Below, piece after piece: positions 2,305-22,611 of a DNA stretch of 23,480 nucleotides. Position 1 is the stretch's first letter. Each line of letters starts with the position of its first letter. The DNA comes from a virus, in IMG/VR virus record IMGVR_UViG_3300020190_000357, positions 1 through 23,480 of that record; one strand, 5' to 3'. Made by a program: the position numbers and the translations under genes. The notes below the pieces were generated by a model. That model did not search any database. It was not told the DNA's origin and worked only from the letters and a program-made list of their open reading frames with translations.

Positions 2305-3330
2305 TCAATCGAAGTTGGAGGTGTTAGTGGCGCGAACGATGCCGAGGTTCTTAAGCTCGTACACCTTCGACCAGTTGCCCACCGTCTCCAGTTGAGCACG
2401 AGTTGGGTTGGTGGTAGTCACCGCCCACTTCGAGCCGACCGGGTGGTAGCAATAGTGCAGGTCAATCGACATAGCATCGCTCTTGGCGAGGATGTCACGA
2501 TCGGTTTCGGTCTGCATCGCCATTTGCTCGCCGCTCGCAACTGCACCTTCGGTGAAGAAGTAAGTTGCGTATTCGGTCGAGGCACCGCTGCCCTCGGTTT
2601 GCACATCATCCGAAACGATGACACGCAGACCCATGTAGGTCGGGACAGTGGGATTGCCGTAAGCAGCAACCATCGAACCACCGGATTGGGTGGTGGAGGT
2701 GCCACGGGCATCGGCAGTGCTTACATAGTCGATTGCACGGCGCTCAACCAGGTCGTAATAGACCTTGGAGTGCATGCAAACGGCAGTCAGCTTGTCGCCT
2801 TGATCGCCCAGCAAGGAGCGAGCTTCAGCAACGTGACGTGGGCTGAGCACAGTCGGGGTGTCGGCAGACTCACCATCAATGGTCAGACCAAAGAAGGCGG
2901 CGGAGGAAGTGGTGGTGCCCAGGGTGCCGAACACGCCCTTGAGGCAGGACAGCAGATCCTTCTGACGCTGGTTGGCAACGTAATCAGCCACCTTGGCACC
3001 AATGGCAGCCATCGGGTCCGAACCGGCTGCAAGCGCAGCAAGATCACGAGCCTCGAAGGCACGCCCACGGTGAAGGATCACGCCAACTTGCTTGTCAGCA
3101 GTGATTTTGCCGGGGGTCAGGGAAGAGCTGTCAGACAGCACTTCAAAATCACCTGACAGGTTTGCCTTCCAAAAAGGCACGTTGATGAAGTCACCGCCCT
3201 CGGTAGCGTTCAACTCCGCCATCGGACGCACAACACCGCTAGCCAGGAAGGCATCGCGCTGGGTGGTCTGTTCGATGACATACGGGGTGAACACCTCGGG
3301 AACGATGATGTCCGACCGAAGAGTCGCCAT
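2305..3330 (-). CDS. Major capsid protein (HK97-fold)
   Basis: This 341-residue protein begins MATLRSDIIVPEVFTPYVIEQ and contains a capsid-like long helix region (residues about 105-150) and a middle domain with 'HSKVYYDLVERRAIDYV' near residue 190. A C-terminal domain with 'VIVSDDV' is typical of phage coat proteins of the gp13-like group. It follows a scaffold-like gene and precedes decoration and connector genes, the canonical order. It is predicted to form the icosahedral shell. The gene is preceded by a 67-base intergenic stretch containing a hairpin, the longest gap in the structural operon, which may help set its higher expression. Confidence is high from order, size and sequence character. 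Confidence 0.85.
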   Translation of the reverse strand: MATLRSDIIVPEVFTPYVIEQTTQRDAFLASGVVRPMAELNATEGGDFINVPFWKANLSGDFEVLSDSSSLTPGKITADKQVGVILHRGRAFEARDLAALAAGSDPMAAIGAKVADYVANQRQKDLLSCLKGVFGTLGTTTSSAAFFGLTIDGESADTPTVLSPRHVAEARSLLGDQGDKLTAVCMHSKVYYDLVERRAIDYVSTADARGTSTTQSGGSMVAAYGNPTVPTYMGLRVIVSDDVQTEGSGASTEYATYFFTEGAVASGEQMAMQTETDRDILAKSDAMSIDLHYCYHPVGSKWAVTTTNPTRAQLETVGNWSKVYELKNLGIVRATNTSNFD

Positions 3331-4081: not shown

Positions 4082-4132
4082 GAATAACCCGCAGGGTTTT
4101 TGCGGTCCTACATTAGTGGTTAGTAACTGGTG

Positions 4133-4327
4133 ATGTCAAAACGGGAATGGAACACGCCATTGCGTGAACCTTGGAATCCCCTGATCCACCAGTGCCTAAA
4201 GGCTATTGATCGTCATACAGCGTTATACCTTGAAACAGGCAACGGCTGGCACGCTGCCAAAGCACAGGAGCTGCGCTCGTACGTTGCTGAGCTTAAAGAT
4301 TGGATCTTCCTGCAGGAAGACAGGTGA
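4133..4327 (+). CDS. Small phage protein, lone plus-strand gene inside the late operon
   Basis: This is a 64-residue protein from ATG 4133 (a GTG at 4130 would add one residue). It reads like a folded, helical soluble domain: EPWNPLIHQCLKAIDRHT, then YLETGNGWHAAKAQELRSYV and ELKDWIFLQE. Similar short W-N-P...L...W-H-x-x-A...L-R-x-Y-V proteins occur in cyanophages as unknowns. It exactly fills the space between the start of the minus-strand scaffold gene (4081) and the stop of the minus-strand gene at 4328, ending one base before it. The strand switch and exact fit argue for a real gene. No convincing SD or promoter is visible. Function unknown. Confidence 0.6.
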   Translation: MSKREWNTPLREPWNPLIHQCLKAIDRHTALYLETGNGWHAAKAQELRSYVAELKDWIFLQEDR

Positions 4328-7987: not shown

Positions 7988-8028
7988 GTCCCTGCTTTCT
8001 CAGCTTTTCTGCATTGTAGGTAACGAGG

Positions 8029-10927: not shown

Positions 10928-10947
10928 GGGATCGTATCAGTTTTAGC

Positions 10948-12844: not shown

Positions 12845-12851
12845 GTACAGT
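12823..12851 (+). promoter_or_regulatory. Candidate plus-strand promoter across the initiator start codon
   Basis: TTGATT (12823-12828) and TACAGT (12846-12851) are separated by 17 bases, a sigma-70-like arrangement with 4/6 matches in each box. It overlaps the first codons and ATG of the minus-strand initiator gene (start 12844). Transcription would begin near 12858 and reach a strong terminator about 40 bases later, producing a short RNA antisense to the initiator leader. Boxes of this quality can occur by chance; the support is the terminator immediately downstream. Confidence 0.35.
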
Positions 12852-12857
12852 TGCGGT

Positions 12858-12899
12858 GCGTTTGTGCATTGAGCCTCCGGTCACTGCCGGGGGCTTTTT
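12858..12899 (+). ncRNA. Candidate short antisense RNA to the initiator mRNA leader
   Basis: Predicted from the promoter-like boxes at 12823-12851 and the intrinsic terminator at 12873-12904; no ORF lies within. The RNA would be about 40-45 nt, mostly the terminator hairpin, and complementary to the untranslated stretch between the RHH gene stop (12898) and the initiator start (12844). Its place matches RNAII of pMV158, which is made between copG and repB and blocks repB translation. It is an inference from arrangement only. Confidence 0.35.
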
Positions 12900-12904
12900 A
12901 TTTT
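12873..12904 (+). terminator. Intrinsic terminator pointing right, opposite to flanking genes
   Basis: GCCTCCGG (12873-12880), loop TCACTG and CCGGGGGC (12887-12894) form a GC-rich near-perfect stem followed by TTTTTATTTT. It can only terminate plus-strand transcription, yet both flanking genes (initiator and 59-aa RHH gene) are on the minus strand. The T-run overlaps the RHH gene stop codon. This implies a plus-strand transcript here. Confidence 0.75.
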
Positions 12905-13077
12905 GCTGCCGCCTGGGGAGCCTGCAAGGATTTGAGCTCGCGCAACTCAACGGCTTCTAGAAGAAGCTGATTGACGAAGCCTTTACGAGTCAGATGAGTG
13001 GGCTGAATGAGGTCAATGCGACTGAGGATTTCATCCGCGATGCGGATGGTGACACCCTTTGAAACTGTCAGTGGCAT
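12898..13077 (-). CDS. Small ribbon-helix-helix (CopG/Arc-like) regulator
   Basis: This is a 59-codon gene from ATG 13077 to TAA 12898. The sequence fits the RHH fold: a short beta strand with SKGVTIRIADEI, helix 1 LSRIDLIQPTHL, a turn, and helix 2 TRKGFVNQLLLEAVELREL, with a short Ala/Gln tail. RHH dimers bind operator DNA with the paired strands. It lies upstream of, and in the same direction as, the initiator gene, 53 bases away, and is next to divergent promoter-like boxes. I infer it is the autoregulator of the replication transcript and perhaps of the divergent early genes, like CopG of pMV158. No SD is visible. Confidence 0.72.
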   Translation of the reverse strand: MPLTVSKGVTIRIADEILSRIDLIQPTHLTRKGFVNQLLLEAVELRELKSLQAPQAAAK

Positions 13078-13079
13078 GG

Positions 13080-13108
13080 TTGGAAAAGCGCCGAAGCCGC
13101 GCTACTGT
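13080..13108 (+). promoter_or_regulatory. Candidate promoter for the early plus-strand operon
   Basis: TTGGAA (13080-13085), a 17-base spacer and TACTGT (13103-13108) form a sigma-70-like promoter. The start point would be near 13115, about 11 bases before the TTG start codon of the exonuclease gene. Its -10 box overlaps that of a minus-strand promoter candidate, so the two could not be open at once. Box quality is moderate (4/6 each). Confidence 0.4.
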
Positions 13109-13132
13109 AAAGCCCATCCGCTGATTTGGCAA
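13104..13132 (-). promoter_or_regulatory. Candidate promoter for the RHH-initiator operon
   Basis: On the minus strand TTGCCA (13132-13127), a 17-base spacer and TACAGT (13109-13104) form a sigma-70-like promoter with a predicted start near 13097, about 20 bases before the RHH ATG at 13077. The -10 lies on the same bases as the -10 of the rightward candidate, because TACTGTA reads TACAGTA on the other strand. It would control the replication genes and perhaps the whole leftward operon. Confidence 0.4.
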
Positions 13133-18988: not shown

Positions 18989-19252
18989 ATGACCGATGAG
19001 ATGATGCACGCCCAGATGGCGGCTCTTTACGCTCAGCAGCGTGTAGATCTCAAACCATTGGATCATCTCGAAACCATCCTGCCGCCTCACCTTTGTGATT
19101 CCGTACGGCATTACGCCTCATCACGCGAATACACCACAAAGCAGGCTCTATCCCACATCGTTTCTAAGTTTTTCGGATCATGCTTCAAGTCACAGCCGTC
19201 GGCAATCTCGCAGCCGACCCTGAAGTCCGCACCGTTGGCGACAACGAAGTAG
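18989..19252 (+). CDS. Small phage protein overlapping the SSB gene
   Basis: This is an 87-residue frame from ATG 18989, four bases after the SSAP stop. The non-overlapping part (DEMMHAQMAALYAQQRVDL, DHLETILPPHLCDSVRHYA, SSREYTTKQALSHIVSKFFG) looks genuine and partly RHH-like (L-P-P-x-L-x-D-x-V ... T-x-x-x-A-L-x-x-I). The last 24 codons run out of frame through the first 73 bases of SSB and are polar and probably unconstrained. Function unknown; possibly a DNA-binding or SSAP partner protein. Confidence 0.55.
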   Translation: MTDEMMHAQMAALYAQQRVDLKPLDHLETILPPHLCDSVRHYASSREYTTKQALSHIVSKFFGSCFKSQPSAISQPTLKSAPLATTK

Positions 19253-19512
19253 CGAACTTCCTCATCCTCTGCAACAAGAAGATCAAAGGCGAGGAGCACG
19301 TCTCTGCATTGCGTTGTGCAGTGTGGGGACCACGCGCTAAGGTCGTCGCTGATTATCTGACCAAAGGCTCGCAAGTCACCGTTACTGGTCAGGCTTATGT
19401 CGAGACCTACGAGACGAAAACCGGCGAGACCCGCGCCAACCTGAACGTTGCTGTTAACGACTTCACCTTGCCTCCTAAGCCAAGGGTTGAAACAGCCGAC
19501 ATGCCGTTCTAA
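19180..19512 (+). CDS. ssb: Single-stranded DNA-binding protein
   Basis: This is a 110-residue OB-fold SSB. It shows MLQVTAVGNLAADPEVRTVG, a strand with VANFLILCNKK, ALRCAVWGPRAKVVADYL, TKGSQVTVTGQAYVETYE and NLNVAVNDFTL, and ends ETADMPF, the acidic D-x-P-F tip that binds partner proteins in bacterial SSBs. It is shorter than host SSB (about 120-175), with only a short linker. It protects single strands in recombination and replication and is the last gene before a strong terminator. Its start lies inside the preceding small gene. Confidence 0.88.
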   Translation: MLQVTAVGNLAADPEVRTVGDNEVANFLILCNKKIKGEEHVSALRCAVWGPRAKVVADYLTKGSQVTVTGQAYVETYETKTGETRANLNVAVNDFTLPPKPRVETADMPF

Positions 19513-19518: not shown

Positions 19519-19540
19519 GGGGGGCTTGCCCCCCTTTTTT
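19519..19540 (+). terminator. Strong intrinsic terminator between ssb and the sigma factor gene
   Basis: GGGGGG (19519-19524), loop CTTG, CCCCCC (19529-19534) and TTTTTT (19535-19540) form a perfect 6-bp GC stem with a U-run, starting seven bases after the ssb stop. The sigma gene ATG lies only eight bases after the U-run, leaving no room for a separate promoter downstream. Confidence 0.9.
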
Positions 19541-19548
19541 ATGGGTCA

Positions 19549-20475
19549 ATGTCCAGCGCAGTCAGCGACTATCTCAATCAGATCGGCAAGATTCCGCTGC
19601 TAACCGCTGCGGAAGAAATCGAACTCGGCAACGCAATCCAGCAGATGATGTCCCTAGTGGACAAAGCAGATCTCACCAAAGAGGAGCAACGGACTATTCG
19701 CATCGGTGAACGCGCCAAGAATCGCATGATTCAAGGCAACCTACGTCTTGTCATTCGCGTTGCTGGAAAGTACAGCAGGATGACGAATCGAATCACGATG
19801 CAAGATCTGATTCAAGAAGGCAACATCGGTCTGATCCGTGCTGCTGAAATGTTTGACCCGTCCAGAGGGTACAAGTTTTCAACGTATGCCTACTGGTGGA
19901 TCAAGCAAGGCATCATGCGTGCCTCACAGATGCAGGATCGGATGATAAAACTGCCAAGCGGTGCGCCAGACGCCTTACGCAAAATCAAGTTTTACACCAT
20001 CGAATACCAAAAGGAACACGGCAAAGTGCCAACCATTGAAGAATGTGCTGAACTGGTAGGACTGCAGCCTGACACTGTTCGCGCTTATCTTGCAAGCGCC
20101 GTTGATGCTGGGAGCTTGGACGCCAAGGCTAAGCACAAAGAAGACGATGCTAGCAGCATCATTGACTTGATTGCCTGTGACAGTGAATGCCCAGAAGACG
20201 AGCTGCTGCTTGACACTCAAATTGAAGCGGTACAGCAAGCACTGCCAAAGATCAGCAAGCGTGCGCAGCAGCTTCTTACCCTGCGCTATGGGTTGAACGG
20301 TCAAGAACCGTTATCAGGTCCAGCCATCGCAAAACAGTACGGAATGTACAGAGAATCAATGCGCCGTCAAATCGTCAACGCCGAACAGGAACTTAAAGCT
20401 GCCTTGCAAGGTGAACCGCCGGGAAAGTTGCAGATACAGAAGAACAACTCCAGCTTGATCTGGGGGTGGAGCTAG
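19549..20475 (+). CDS. Phage-encoded group-2 sigma-70 factor
   Basis: This is a 308-residue sigma factor with region 1.2 (DYLNQIGKIPLLTAAEEIEL, 8-27), region 2 (NLRLVIRVAGKYSRM, DLIQEGNIGLIRAAEMFD, YKFSTYAYWWIKQGIMRA, 58-140), region 3 (YQKEHGKVPTIEECAELVGL) and region 4 (KRAQQLLTLRYGLNGQEPLS, 237-285). It resembles cyanobacterial group-2 sigmas. Differences lie at promoter-reading sites: region 2.4 has M123 and SQMQDRMIKLPSG in place of the usual T and AxxQxRTIRLP, and the 4.2 helix reads YRESMRRQIVNAEQ in place of TRERVRQIE. It should direct host polymerase to altered promoters. No SD is visible; GGG lies five bases before ATG. Confidence 0.92.
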   Translation: MSSAVSDYLNQIGKIPLLTAAEEIELGNAIQQMMSLVDKADLTKEEQRTIRIGERAKNRMIQGNLRLVIRVAGKYSRMTNRITMQDLIQEGNIGLIRAAEMFDPSRGYKFSTYAYWWIKQGIMRASQMQDRMIKLPSGAPDALRKIKFYTIEYQKEHGKVPTIEECAELVGLQPDTVRAYLASAVDAGSLDAKAKHKEDDASSIIDLIACDSECPEDELLLDTQIEAVQQALPKISKRAQQLLTLRYGLNGQEPLSGPAIAKQYGMYRESMRRQIVNAEQELKAALQGEPPGKLQIQKNNSSLIWGWS

Positions 20476-20478
20476 ACC

Positions 20479-20742
20479 ATGGGTGCGAATCGGATGGGTC
20501 CGCCCTGCCCTAACTGCGGCAGTCAAGTCACTGATGTCGTCTCAACGTTTCGAACAAAAGAACAAGACGTTGTGCGGTACAGGGTTTGCATTTCCTGTGA
20601 CCACAGGTTTCATACCGCTCAGTACGCTGAAACTGTTGTGGTTTTAAGGCGCGACTTTAAATGGAGTGGTCGCAAAGTCACTCTGCTCAAAGAAGGTATC
20701 AGAAACATGTTCAACGCGCAACTTAAGCAGCATCCGTTATGA
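20479..20742 (+). CDS. NrdR-like zinc-ribbon protein
   Basis: This 87-residue protein has a zinc ribbon C10-x2-C13 ... C37-x2-C40 (PPCPNCGSQVTDVVSTFRTK and YRVCISCDHRFHTAQ), resembling NrdR's N-terminal domain (CPxCG...RRRECxxCxxRFTT). The C-terminal part (VVVLRRDFKWSGRKVTLLKE) recalls only the beginning of an ATP-cone. It starts three bases after the sigma stop and is surely co-transcribed. It could be a transcription regulator that works with the sigma factor or a regulator of nucleotide metabolism. The full NrdR is about 150 residues, so this is a short relative. Confidence 0.72.
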   Translation: MGANRMGPPCPNCGSQVTDVVSTFRTKEQDVVRYRVCISCDHRFHTAQYAETVVVLRRDFKWSGRKVTLLKEGIRNMFNAQLKQHPL

Positions 20743-21074
20743 AACGTGAGCAGCTTTACTTACAAGGTGGCATGTCAGTCGAAACCGGCAAAGACTGGAA
20801 CGGTCGGTTTTTCATCGCCTATGCACGTGGCGGCAGCGTCTTCCTGCGTGATCCTAAAGAAGTTAGATCATTCCTAAAGCTGCCTACCAAAACGCCTAGC
20901 CGCGAAAGCCTCGACTCATGGTTTGCTTCCCTATCACTATCAGACCAACAAAAGCACCTAGCAGCCAAAACACAGGAGCCAGGATTGTCCCCAGAAGCCT
21001 TGCAAACGGGTTTTGGTCCTGAGTGCCACCTGGATGAACAAGATCCCAATTACCAGACTCGCACAATAATCTGA
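20739..21074 (+). CDS. Small phage protein overlapping a gene on the opposite strand
   Basis: This is a 111-residue frame coupled to the zinc-ribbon gene by ATGA. The first 70 residues look genuine: YLQGGMSVETGKDWNGRFFI, ARGGSVFLRDPKEVRSFLKL and SLDSWFASLSLSDQQ. The remaining part lies opposite the 3' end of the minus-strand gene 20896-21354 and is more polar. It is the last plus-strand gene before the convergent lysis side. No family recognised. No terminator hairpin was seen after it. Confidence 0.55.
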   Translation: MKREQLYLQGGMSVETGKDWNGRFFIAYARGGSVFLRDPKEVRSFLKLPTKTPSRESLDSWFASLSLSDQQKHLAAKTQEPGLSPEALQTGFGPECHLDEQDPNYQTRTII

Positions 21075-21354: not shown

Positions 21355-21520
21355 GAAACCACCTAAGCTAGAAAAGATGGTTACAGATGCGGGTATCCTG
21401 TACCGCGTCACTTATGCAGGCATGGTCAAAGACCATAAGCATGATTGGCAAGCAACCAGTCTGTACTGGCACTTATGCGAGTGCTACGTCCTGAATCTTG
21501 CTGCTAGACGCTATCAGTAA
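21353..21520 (+). CDS. Small protein divergent from the membrane protein, start codons overlapping
   Basis: This is a 55-codon frame from ATG 21353. The product MKPPKLEKMVTDAGILYRVT continues AGMVKDHKHDWQATSLYWHL and CECYVLNLAARRYQ, with aromatic/Cys/His content and a plausible small fold. The sequence CATG at 21352-21355 supplies ATG for both this gene and the minus-strand membrane protein gene. AGGG lies about nine bases upstream. It overlaps the endolysin end by seven bases. A real gene is plausible but unproven; function unknown. Confidence 0.45.
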   Translation: MKPPKLEKMVTDAGILYRVTYAGMVKDHKHDWQATSLYWHLCECYVLNLAARRYQ

Positions 21521-22611
21521 TCCCAACGAATACGAGGTGCTTTGCTTGGGTCGTTACTGCCTGACCTAACGCCAAGATGGACAAAGCCTTTGCCAGCGCC
21601 GTAGCCCAAGCTATGCGCCCAGTGCTTATCACACCAGTCTTGAACTGTTCTAATGTTGGCTCCTGAAACGTAAAAATCGACAGCACCGCAGCCAGGCTTG
21701 TACAAGTGCTCCGAATCAGAAGCGCCACCAACTGCGCTATTGATCGCCGGTGGACGGTAACCGCTGGTGATGATGATCGGCTGATTGCCAAATGCAGTGC
21801 GAACCTTTTCCAAGAAGTTGGCAAGGTACAAAGCCACCTTGATCTGATCTGGACGGTCAAAACGCCTGCGCTCTTCTCGCAACGCAAACTCGCCAAGCGT
21901 GATGTTCGGCGTTAGGTGAGCACTGAAGGGTGCTTCAATGCTTAGGTTGGCAGTACCCGCAGGCGAAGCAGGCAATCCCTTACGCCATAGCTGACCTTCA
22001 GCTTTACGGCGTCGCAATAAGCCAGCTTCAACATTAGTGCCAGGATTGCGGTAAAGCTCCAGAGCAGCAGGAACTCCGATCCAATCCTTTTCGCGCAAGC
22101 AACGACTGATCGTCTCAAAGCCAGCAGAGCCATAAAAGCCACTGCCAAGGTTGTAGGCAAAGCTCACTAAAGCAGATTTCTGCTCGTCCGCCATTTCCTC
22201 CCAATGCGGGACGCTAGTGCGGAGCTTTTCAGCAATGCGATCAACCTCAAGTTCAAGAAGCATGTCAGCTTCAATGACCGTGATCTTGTCACCACGCTTA
22301 ACTGCTATGCCACCGCTGTAGCGCGTGGTGCCGTAACCGATAGTCCATGGATCACCGCCGCTAAGCGGATCAGGATATGCCGAAAGATGGCAGCCTTCAA
22401 ACTCTTTGATAAGAGCGATGCCAGCACTCAGATCAGCCTGTTTGCCAGCTTGGCTCCAAGTCAAAAACCATTGACGATCACGACGCATCGCAAGTTCATA
22501 GCCATTGATAGCTAAATCCTGCTGTAACTGCTGGATCGCAGCAGCTTGATGCGGGAGCCCTTTCCAGTATTTAAAGAGCTGTTCAAGACTTATTGGTGCA
22601 GGGTTGCTCAT
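21514..22611 (-). CDS. Two-domain endolysin: GH24 lysozyme plus M15 peptidase
   Basis: This is a 365-residue protein. Residues 60-212 are a GH24 (T4-like) lysozyme: GIALIKEFEGCHLSAYPDPL with catalytic E72 and D81, and WTIGYGTTRY with T90; SFAYNLGSG and LLRRRKAEGQLW are also typical. Residues 235-365 are an M15 (VanY-like) peptidase: ITSGYRPPAINSAVGGASDS, E-H-L with H302, AVDFYV with D312 and GFVHLGV with H345 as zinc ligands. The N-terminal 58 residues may target or inhibit. One domain cuts glycan strands, the other stem peptides. No signal peptide, so export depends on a holin. Confidence 0.9.
   Translation of the reverse strand: MSNPAPISLEQLFKYWKGLPHQAAAIQQLQQDLAINGYELAMRRDRQWFLTWSQAGKQADLSAGIALIKEFEGCHLSAYPDPLSGGDPWTIGYGTTRYSGGIAVKRGDKITVIEADMLLELEVDRIAEKLRTSVPHWEEMADEQKSALVSFAYNLGSGFYGSAGFETISRCLREKDWIGVPAALELYRNPGTNVEAGLLRRRKAEGQLWRKGLPASPAGTANLSIEAPFSAHLTPNITLGEFALREERRRFDRPDQIKVALYLANFLEKVRTAFGNQPIIITSGYRPPAINSAVGGASDSEHLYKPGCGAVDFYVSGANIRTVQDWCDKHWAHSLGYGAGKGFVHLGVRSGSNDPSKAPRIRWDY

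Follow-up and report, generated by a model that had tools for sequence, protein, structure and literature searches.

Small phage proteins that retarget the host polymerase to late genes include gp55 and gp33 of T4 and Ogr of P2. Gp55 is a minimal, diverged sigma factor that does not have regions 1.2-4, and Ogr is a zinc protein. Phage sigma factors have also been reported in P-SS2 (PMC2784084), S-LBS1 (PMC6157547) and KBS2A (PMC3751600), and the group-2 sigma of P-SS2 is expected to read sigma-70 promoters (PMC2784084). The homologues in S-CBS3, S-CBS1, KBS-S-2A and S-LBS1 are already labelled as group-2 or RpoD sigmas. When RpsD4 of S-CBS3 was expressed in Synechococcus elongatus 7942, host growth and acetyl-CoA were changed (reviewed in PMC10452541).

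The DNA analysed here, referred to as the window, is a linear fragment of 23,480 nucleotides, deposited as an IMG/VR virus record (IMGVR_UViG_3300020190_000357). In its capsid protein it shares 90% identity with cyanophage KBS-S-2A and 82% with S-H1, both phages of Synechococcus WH7803, and the window is thus part of a KBS-S-2A-like cyanosiphovirus. P-SS2 is likewise a cyanosiphovirus carrying a group-2 sigma, but it is larger, has the sigma before the single-strand DNA-binding protein gene (ssb) and encodes a group-3 sigma in addition. The genes of the window considered here are:

2305..3330, minus strand: major capsid protein, which places the phage
19180..19512, plus strand: single-strand DNA-binding protein (ssb), the gene ahead of the terminator
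19549..20475, plus strand: sigma-70 family factor of 308 aa, with regions 1.2-4 and a predicted disordered C-terminal tail of 18 residues
20479..20742, plus strand: NrdR-type zinc ribbon protein of 87 aa, with four Cys (CPNC...CISC) and without ATP-cone
20739..21074, plus strand: o111, a 111-aa protein of phrog_37139, function unknown, which follows the ribbon in the family
21514..22611, minus strand: lysozyme/peptidase M15 endolysin, at the end of the late strand and convergent with the sigma cassette

The order ssb, sigma, ribbon, o111 was constant in 11 genomes of the window family. In most genomes of the family, and also in S-CBS1, S-CBS3, S-LBS1 and KBS-S-2A, the sigma gene closes the early strand and faces the endolysin gene in convergent orientation. 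The likely main early control region of the window is at 12845-13125, a divergent region between a late-strand replication-protein-like gene and an early-strand exonuclease gene, with terminators and -10-like sites. These four phages resemble the window in having a full group-2-like sigma-70 (RpsD4/RpoD) as the last early-strand gene, but their sigmas are only 34-42% identical to that of the window (S-CBS3 42%, S-CBS1 39%, KBS-S-2A 35%, S-LBS1 34%). They also have neither a terminator before the sigma gene nor the invariant 3' element described below. Metagenomic relatives of the window sigma were between about 55% and 100% identical to it; in one of them (G022:C1:22957-23871) the sigma frame is interrupted by one TGA. 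Among 16 contigs picked by their capsid or terminase, regardless of sigma, 12 carried the gene, several of the 16 being fragments.

The original prediction had described a group-2 type sigma with regions 1.2-4, different from gp55, and this was borne out. Regions 1.2, 2 and 3 were matched by Pfam (Sigma70_r1_2 1.3e-12, r2 6.3e-19, r3 1.4e-7). The Pfam match of region 4 was weak (0.028, below cut-off), and its helices were there in the fold model, which matched sigma-A chains over almost the whole length. The four regions follow each other in order, as in group-2-like members of the sigma-70 family. A late sigma of the gp55 type, which is minimal, diverged and without recognisable regions 1.2, 3 and 4, is ruled out, since the window sigma has all of them. 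By its profile score, the protein is related to the cellular cyanobacterial RpoD/SigA subfamily TIGR02997 (4e-74) but not a member (249.5 bits, below the cut-off of 384.5).

Comparison with the sampled host sigma factors revealed no near-identical host copy; the best plasmid-borne host sigmas were about 38% identical. A maximum-likelihood tree (72 rows) placed SigA, plasmid-borne cyanobacterial group-2 sigmas, Omnitrophota sigmas and MaAM05 together (support 98/99). The main phage group stood apart from them, on a branch of only moderate support (86/79). The window sigma belongs to a clade of 8 rows with 100/100 support. Since phage and sampled host sigmas fall on separate branches, a recent transfer from these hosts appears unlikely. 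An older exchange is possible, because the marine Synechococcus chromosomal sigmas lie outside the tree. Two Omnitrophota MAG contigs (L016, L017) have sigmas that stand beside SigA, yet their residues at positions 440 and 455 are M and Y.

Promoter-recognition residues known from Escherichia coli (roles from PMC2613000) were mapped onto 108 distinct sigmas. Cyanobacterial RpoD/SigA and the group-2 sigmas SigB/C/D/E share regions 1.2-4 with the window sigma, which differs from them by T440M, H455G, E458D and Q589R. The residues singled out before fell where expected: M123 occupies the position of E. coli T440, and YRESMRRQIV lies in helix 4.2. T440M and Q589R do change contact positions, but the -35 contacts R584, E585 and R588 are kept, Q589R being the only replacement among the helix 4.2 contacts. 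Changes that the original prediction had not listed were found in region 3.0, where H455G and E458D affect extended -10 contacts. The -10 melting and recognition residues W433, W434, Q437 and R441 are all present; W434 and Q437 were invariant in 108/108 sigmas, and W433 and R441 varied in one row only. Position 440 was occupied by T (35), M (19), S (17), G (14) and N (9), and also by K, A and Q. Since it varies this freely, M is no marker of a changed -10 preference. T440I and Q437H change -12 reading in E. coli (PMC2613000), and an effect of T440M on -12 reading by the window sigma is possible, not predicted. The proposed alteration of promoter recognition is thus weakly supported: position 440 is variable, and the contact residues are mostly kept. 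Sister clades have lost -35 contacts (R584Q/E585D/R588A or K, or R-A/S-C at these positions), and a changed -35 reading is therefore likelier there than in the window. Sigmas with replaced R584, E585 and R588 are those of G013, G016, G018-G020 and G024-G028. The window sigma is known in kind, and a change of specificity is unproven.

Candidate late promoters, and an overlapping reading frame, were located on the structural side of the window:

4139-4134 (-35 TTGACA) and 4115-4110 (-10 TAATGT), minus strand: candidate scaffold/capsid late promoter with an 18-nt spacer
8013..8018, minus strand: candidate -10 TACAAT, 25 nt upstream of the portal ORF
10931..10936, minus strand: candidate -10 TACGAT with TGn ahead, 27 nt upstream of the methyltransferase ORF
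4130-4327, plus strand: small opposite-strand ORF (MSKREWNTPLREPWNP...) inside the structural operon, found in many relatives

Before the scaffold gene, 12 distinct sequences shared TTTGACA, a variable spacer of fixed length and TAA..TAGG.CCGC; other phages of the group have TACGAT at this site. The methyltransferase and portal candidates lie at conserved distances from their genes, and all candidates keep T-12, A-11 and T-7. The scaffold/capsid promoter, the best of them, appears plain sigma-70-like and looks readable by host SigA. In most genomes its TTGACA overlaps the start codon (MSK start) of the small ORF. Four loci that do not have the overlapping ORF (L094, L104, L071, L092) keep the TTGACA, which is therefore more than a coding effect. 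A covariation of the -35 contact residues with TTGACA was considered and is not clean, given the overlap with the ORF start in most genomes; G013, G016 and G029, moreover, keep TTGACA despite changed residues. A motif upstream of late genes had been proposed as a check. De novo search of the late- and early-strand gaps gave only terminators and weak motifs and no common late motif, and a consensus scan showed no promoter excess. Each genome has a single copy of the exact late promoter, so that no regulon-wide consensus can be derived. As for the proposed phage-specific late promoters, the location of the sigma gene at the early-strand end, convergent with the late strand, fits, but the candidates are plain sigma-70-like.

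The sigma could accordingly be a SigA-like factor with no new specificity, which raises or keeps late sigma-70-type transcription of host and phage and opens no phage-specific promoters. The form of the candidate promoters and the mostly kept contact residues agree with this, as does the S-CBS3 RpsD4 homologue, which altered the host and would therefore act on host promoters. H455G in region 3.0 and Q589R set the window sigma apart, and the sister clades without -35 contacts suggest a drifting or changed -35 use. On balance, we consider a sigma of unchanged specificity rather unlikely.

Two elements frame the sigma gene:

19519..19541, plus strand: strong intrinsic terminator (GGGGGGCTTGCCCCCC and a T-tract) between ssb and sigma, ending a short way ahead of the sigma ATG
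20437..20472, plus strand: nucleotide-invariant element (CAG...CTCCAGCTTGAYCTGGGG.TGG) at the sigma 3' end, overlapping the Shine-Dalgarno region of the ribbon gene

A terminator directly before the sigma gene is a new observation. Each of the 16 distinct upstream sequences of the clade had one, 13-15 nt ahead of the sigma ATG; among control genes the count was 8/295, and among the remaining sigma loci 2 of about 85. In the window the terminator fills the 36-nt gap between ssb and sigma, which suggests that sigma is reached by read-through or antitermination.

The invariance of the sigma 3' end at the nucleotide level is also new. Synonymous sites of the CAG codon and the SSL(I/T) codons were 100% frozen in the clade, versus about 50% elsewhere, and exact matches to the element were found at sigma 3' ends only (34/34). 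The frozen codons encode the tail SSLIWGW. A role of this tail as a protein docking motif is disfavoured, as the tail is predicted to be disordered (pLDDT under 40) while its codons are frozen. The element may be an RNA signal or a recombination joint; both are possible. That it is maintained as a joint at which ribbons are exchanged by recombination, and not as an RNA signal, has slightly less than an even chance in our estimate. The ribbon replacement described below starts right past the element, and the hairpin of the window itself is weak (z +0.73) and has no compensatory pairs. Pointing instead to an RNA signal, the element covers the ribosome-binding region of the ribbon gene, and most relatives can form an 11-bp hairpin across it, in which 97.7% of cells are paired, a share that drops to about 60% or less once the pairing is slid. 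Compensatory pairs were absent from the hairpin across the relatives, and Rfam gave no match. With no such pairs and a weak window hairpin, we do not claim a proven RNA element.

An NrdR-like ribbon three bases after the sigma gene had been proposed, and both the ORFs and PF22811 (Zn_ribbon_NrdR) confirmed it. The window protein matched this profile at 6.3e-7, above cut-off, and 29/29 members of the ribbon family are of this type. Its N-terminal half folds like the NrdR zinc ribbon (rmsd 1.3 A over 45 residues, Z 7.2; Foldseek 4.9e-4), the nearest fold being the zinc-ribbon domain of a transcription repressor; a weak likeness to Rpb9/TFIIS ribbons was also seen. The protein shares the N-terminal zinc ribbon with the NrdR repressor but differs in its unrelated C-terminal half and in its linkage to a sigma rather than to ribonucleotide reductase. 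A Pfam scan of its 87 aa detected no ATP-cone domain, and membership in NrdR was rejected for this absence. A ribbon that acts like NrdR, repressing host ribonucleotide reductase genes, seems highly improbable. It would have the same ribbon domain, but the protein is short and without ATP-cone, a search of the window at up to 3 mismatches gave 0 NrdR boxes (the host genome lying outside this search), and a phage would want more nucleotide supply, not less. Two other identities were also rejected. The Ogr/Delta profile (PF04606) of late activators such as P2 Ogr did not match the window ribbon and matched only 3/29 members, weakly (best 0.0064). The Lar restriction-alleviation profile (TIGR03655) scored 21 bits against a cut-off of 39.6 (3e-4).

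The occurrence of NrdR-type ribbons near many divergent phage sigmas is new. A profile built from the ribbons was searched in 79 loci fetched by sigma alone, and a ribbon lay within 3 kb of the sigma in 34 of them. There were 39 ribbons near a sigma and 2 far from one, even though less of the DNA lay near a sigma than far from one (binomial p 1.4e-11, an optimistic value as the phages are related), and all 39 near ribbons were on the sigma strand. After clustering, 13/37 assessable sigma clusters had a ribbon, the one of S-LBS1 being on the opposite strand, 1.5 kb away, and its only one. The ribbon was downstream of the sigma in some clusters and upstream in others. No ribbon was detected in the cultured phages KBS-S-2A, S-CBS1 and S-CBS3, which carry the sigma; the sigma does therefore not need a ribbon. 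A ribbon also occurs without the sigma in S-SRP02, which has its own RNA polymerase. In this cyanopodovirus (L323, record 21828-22016), the NrdR-type ribbon is unannotated, and no sigma is annotated in the stretch read.

The ribbon also behaves as a swap cassette, again a new observation. Two phages, L259 and G021 (L297), have 99% identical sigmas and only 35% identical ribbons:

L259:2554-2811 versus L297:8809-9045: swapped ribbons, distant homologues between nearly identical flanks

Identity of the flanking DNA was 82-100% per 40-nt block, mostly 95-100%, and fell to 32-57% only over the ribbon gene, from just past the sigma stop to the o111 start. The replaced ribbon is still of the PF22811 type. 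A milder case is L004/L005 (sigma 92%, ribbon 51% identical). From these pairs it follows that the ribbon slot is kept while the identity of the ribbon is free to change without a change of the sigma. A clean swap beside an unchanged sigma disfavours a tight, co-evolved sigma-ribbon complex. Judged from these comparisons, the exchange seems harder to reconcile with a sigma subunit in tight co-evolution than with a regulator or counter-defence protein that has its target outside the sigma.

Such an exchange, a 35%-identical homologue placed cleanly between 82-100% identical flanks, is typical of arms-race genes. The ribbon might thus be an anti-defence or host-directed cassette gene that hitch-hikes behind the sigma and is unrelated to transcription, and its below-cut-off resemblance to the Lar family would agree. 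We find this doubtful: PADLOC found nothing, the ribbon is linked to sigma over many sigma lineages, upstream or downstream, and its nearest fold comes from a transcription repressor.

The linkage of ribbon and sigma and the exchange of the ribbon do occur, and a terminator-gated sigma-ribbon cassette with exchange is well supported as anatomy. As a full explanation, we slightly favour a terminator-gated late-gene sigma with an exchangeable ribbon that is probably transcription-related. No control gene would follow the sigma on the early (replication) strand. Transcription of the early genes would pass ssb into the intrinsic terminator, and sigma, ribbon and the 111-aa gene product would probably be made late or at low level via read-through, as the anatomy suggests. 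As a sigma-70 family member, the sigma would bind the host core polymerase and might drive the structural and lysis genes on the other strand, using sigma-70-like promoters of which that of scaffold/capsid is an example. The ribbon would be made together with the sigma, probably as a DNA- or polymerase-binding accessory regulator. As it behaves as an exchangeable cassette, the sigma sequence would not be what sets its specificity. Only tentatively do we go further, to a transcription-takeover unit in which the sigma is gated, a swappable ribbon cofactor at the holoenzyme or promoter sets host- or competitor-specific control, and the 3' element couples translation or guides exchange.

Although small cyanosiphoviruses are abundant in metagenomes, little is known about their gene timing. 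A terminator-fronted sigma with a cleanly swapped ribbon offers a testable control unit, in which the gate of the sigma, the promoters that it reads and the selection for exchange can be addressed; the ribbon replacement between L259 and L297 is a good natural experiment. In addition, the small ribbon proteins that recur in phages, labelled NrdR or unknown at present, gain a hypothesis for their function.
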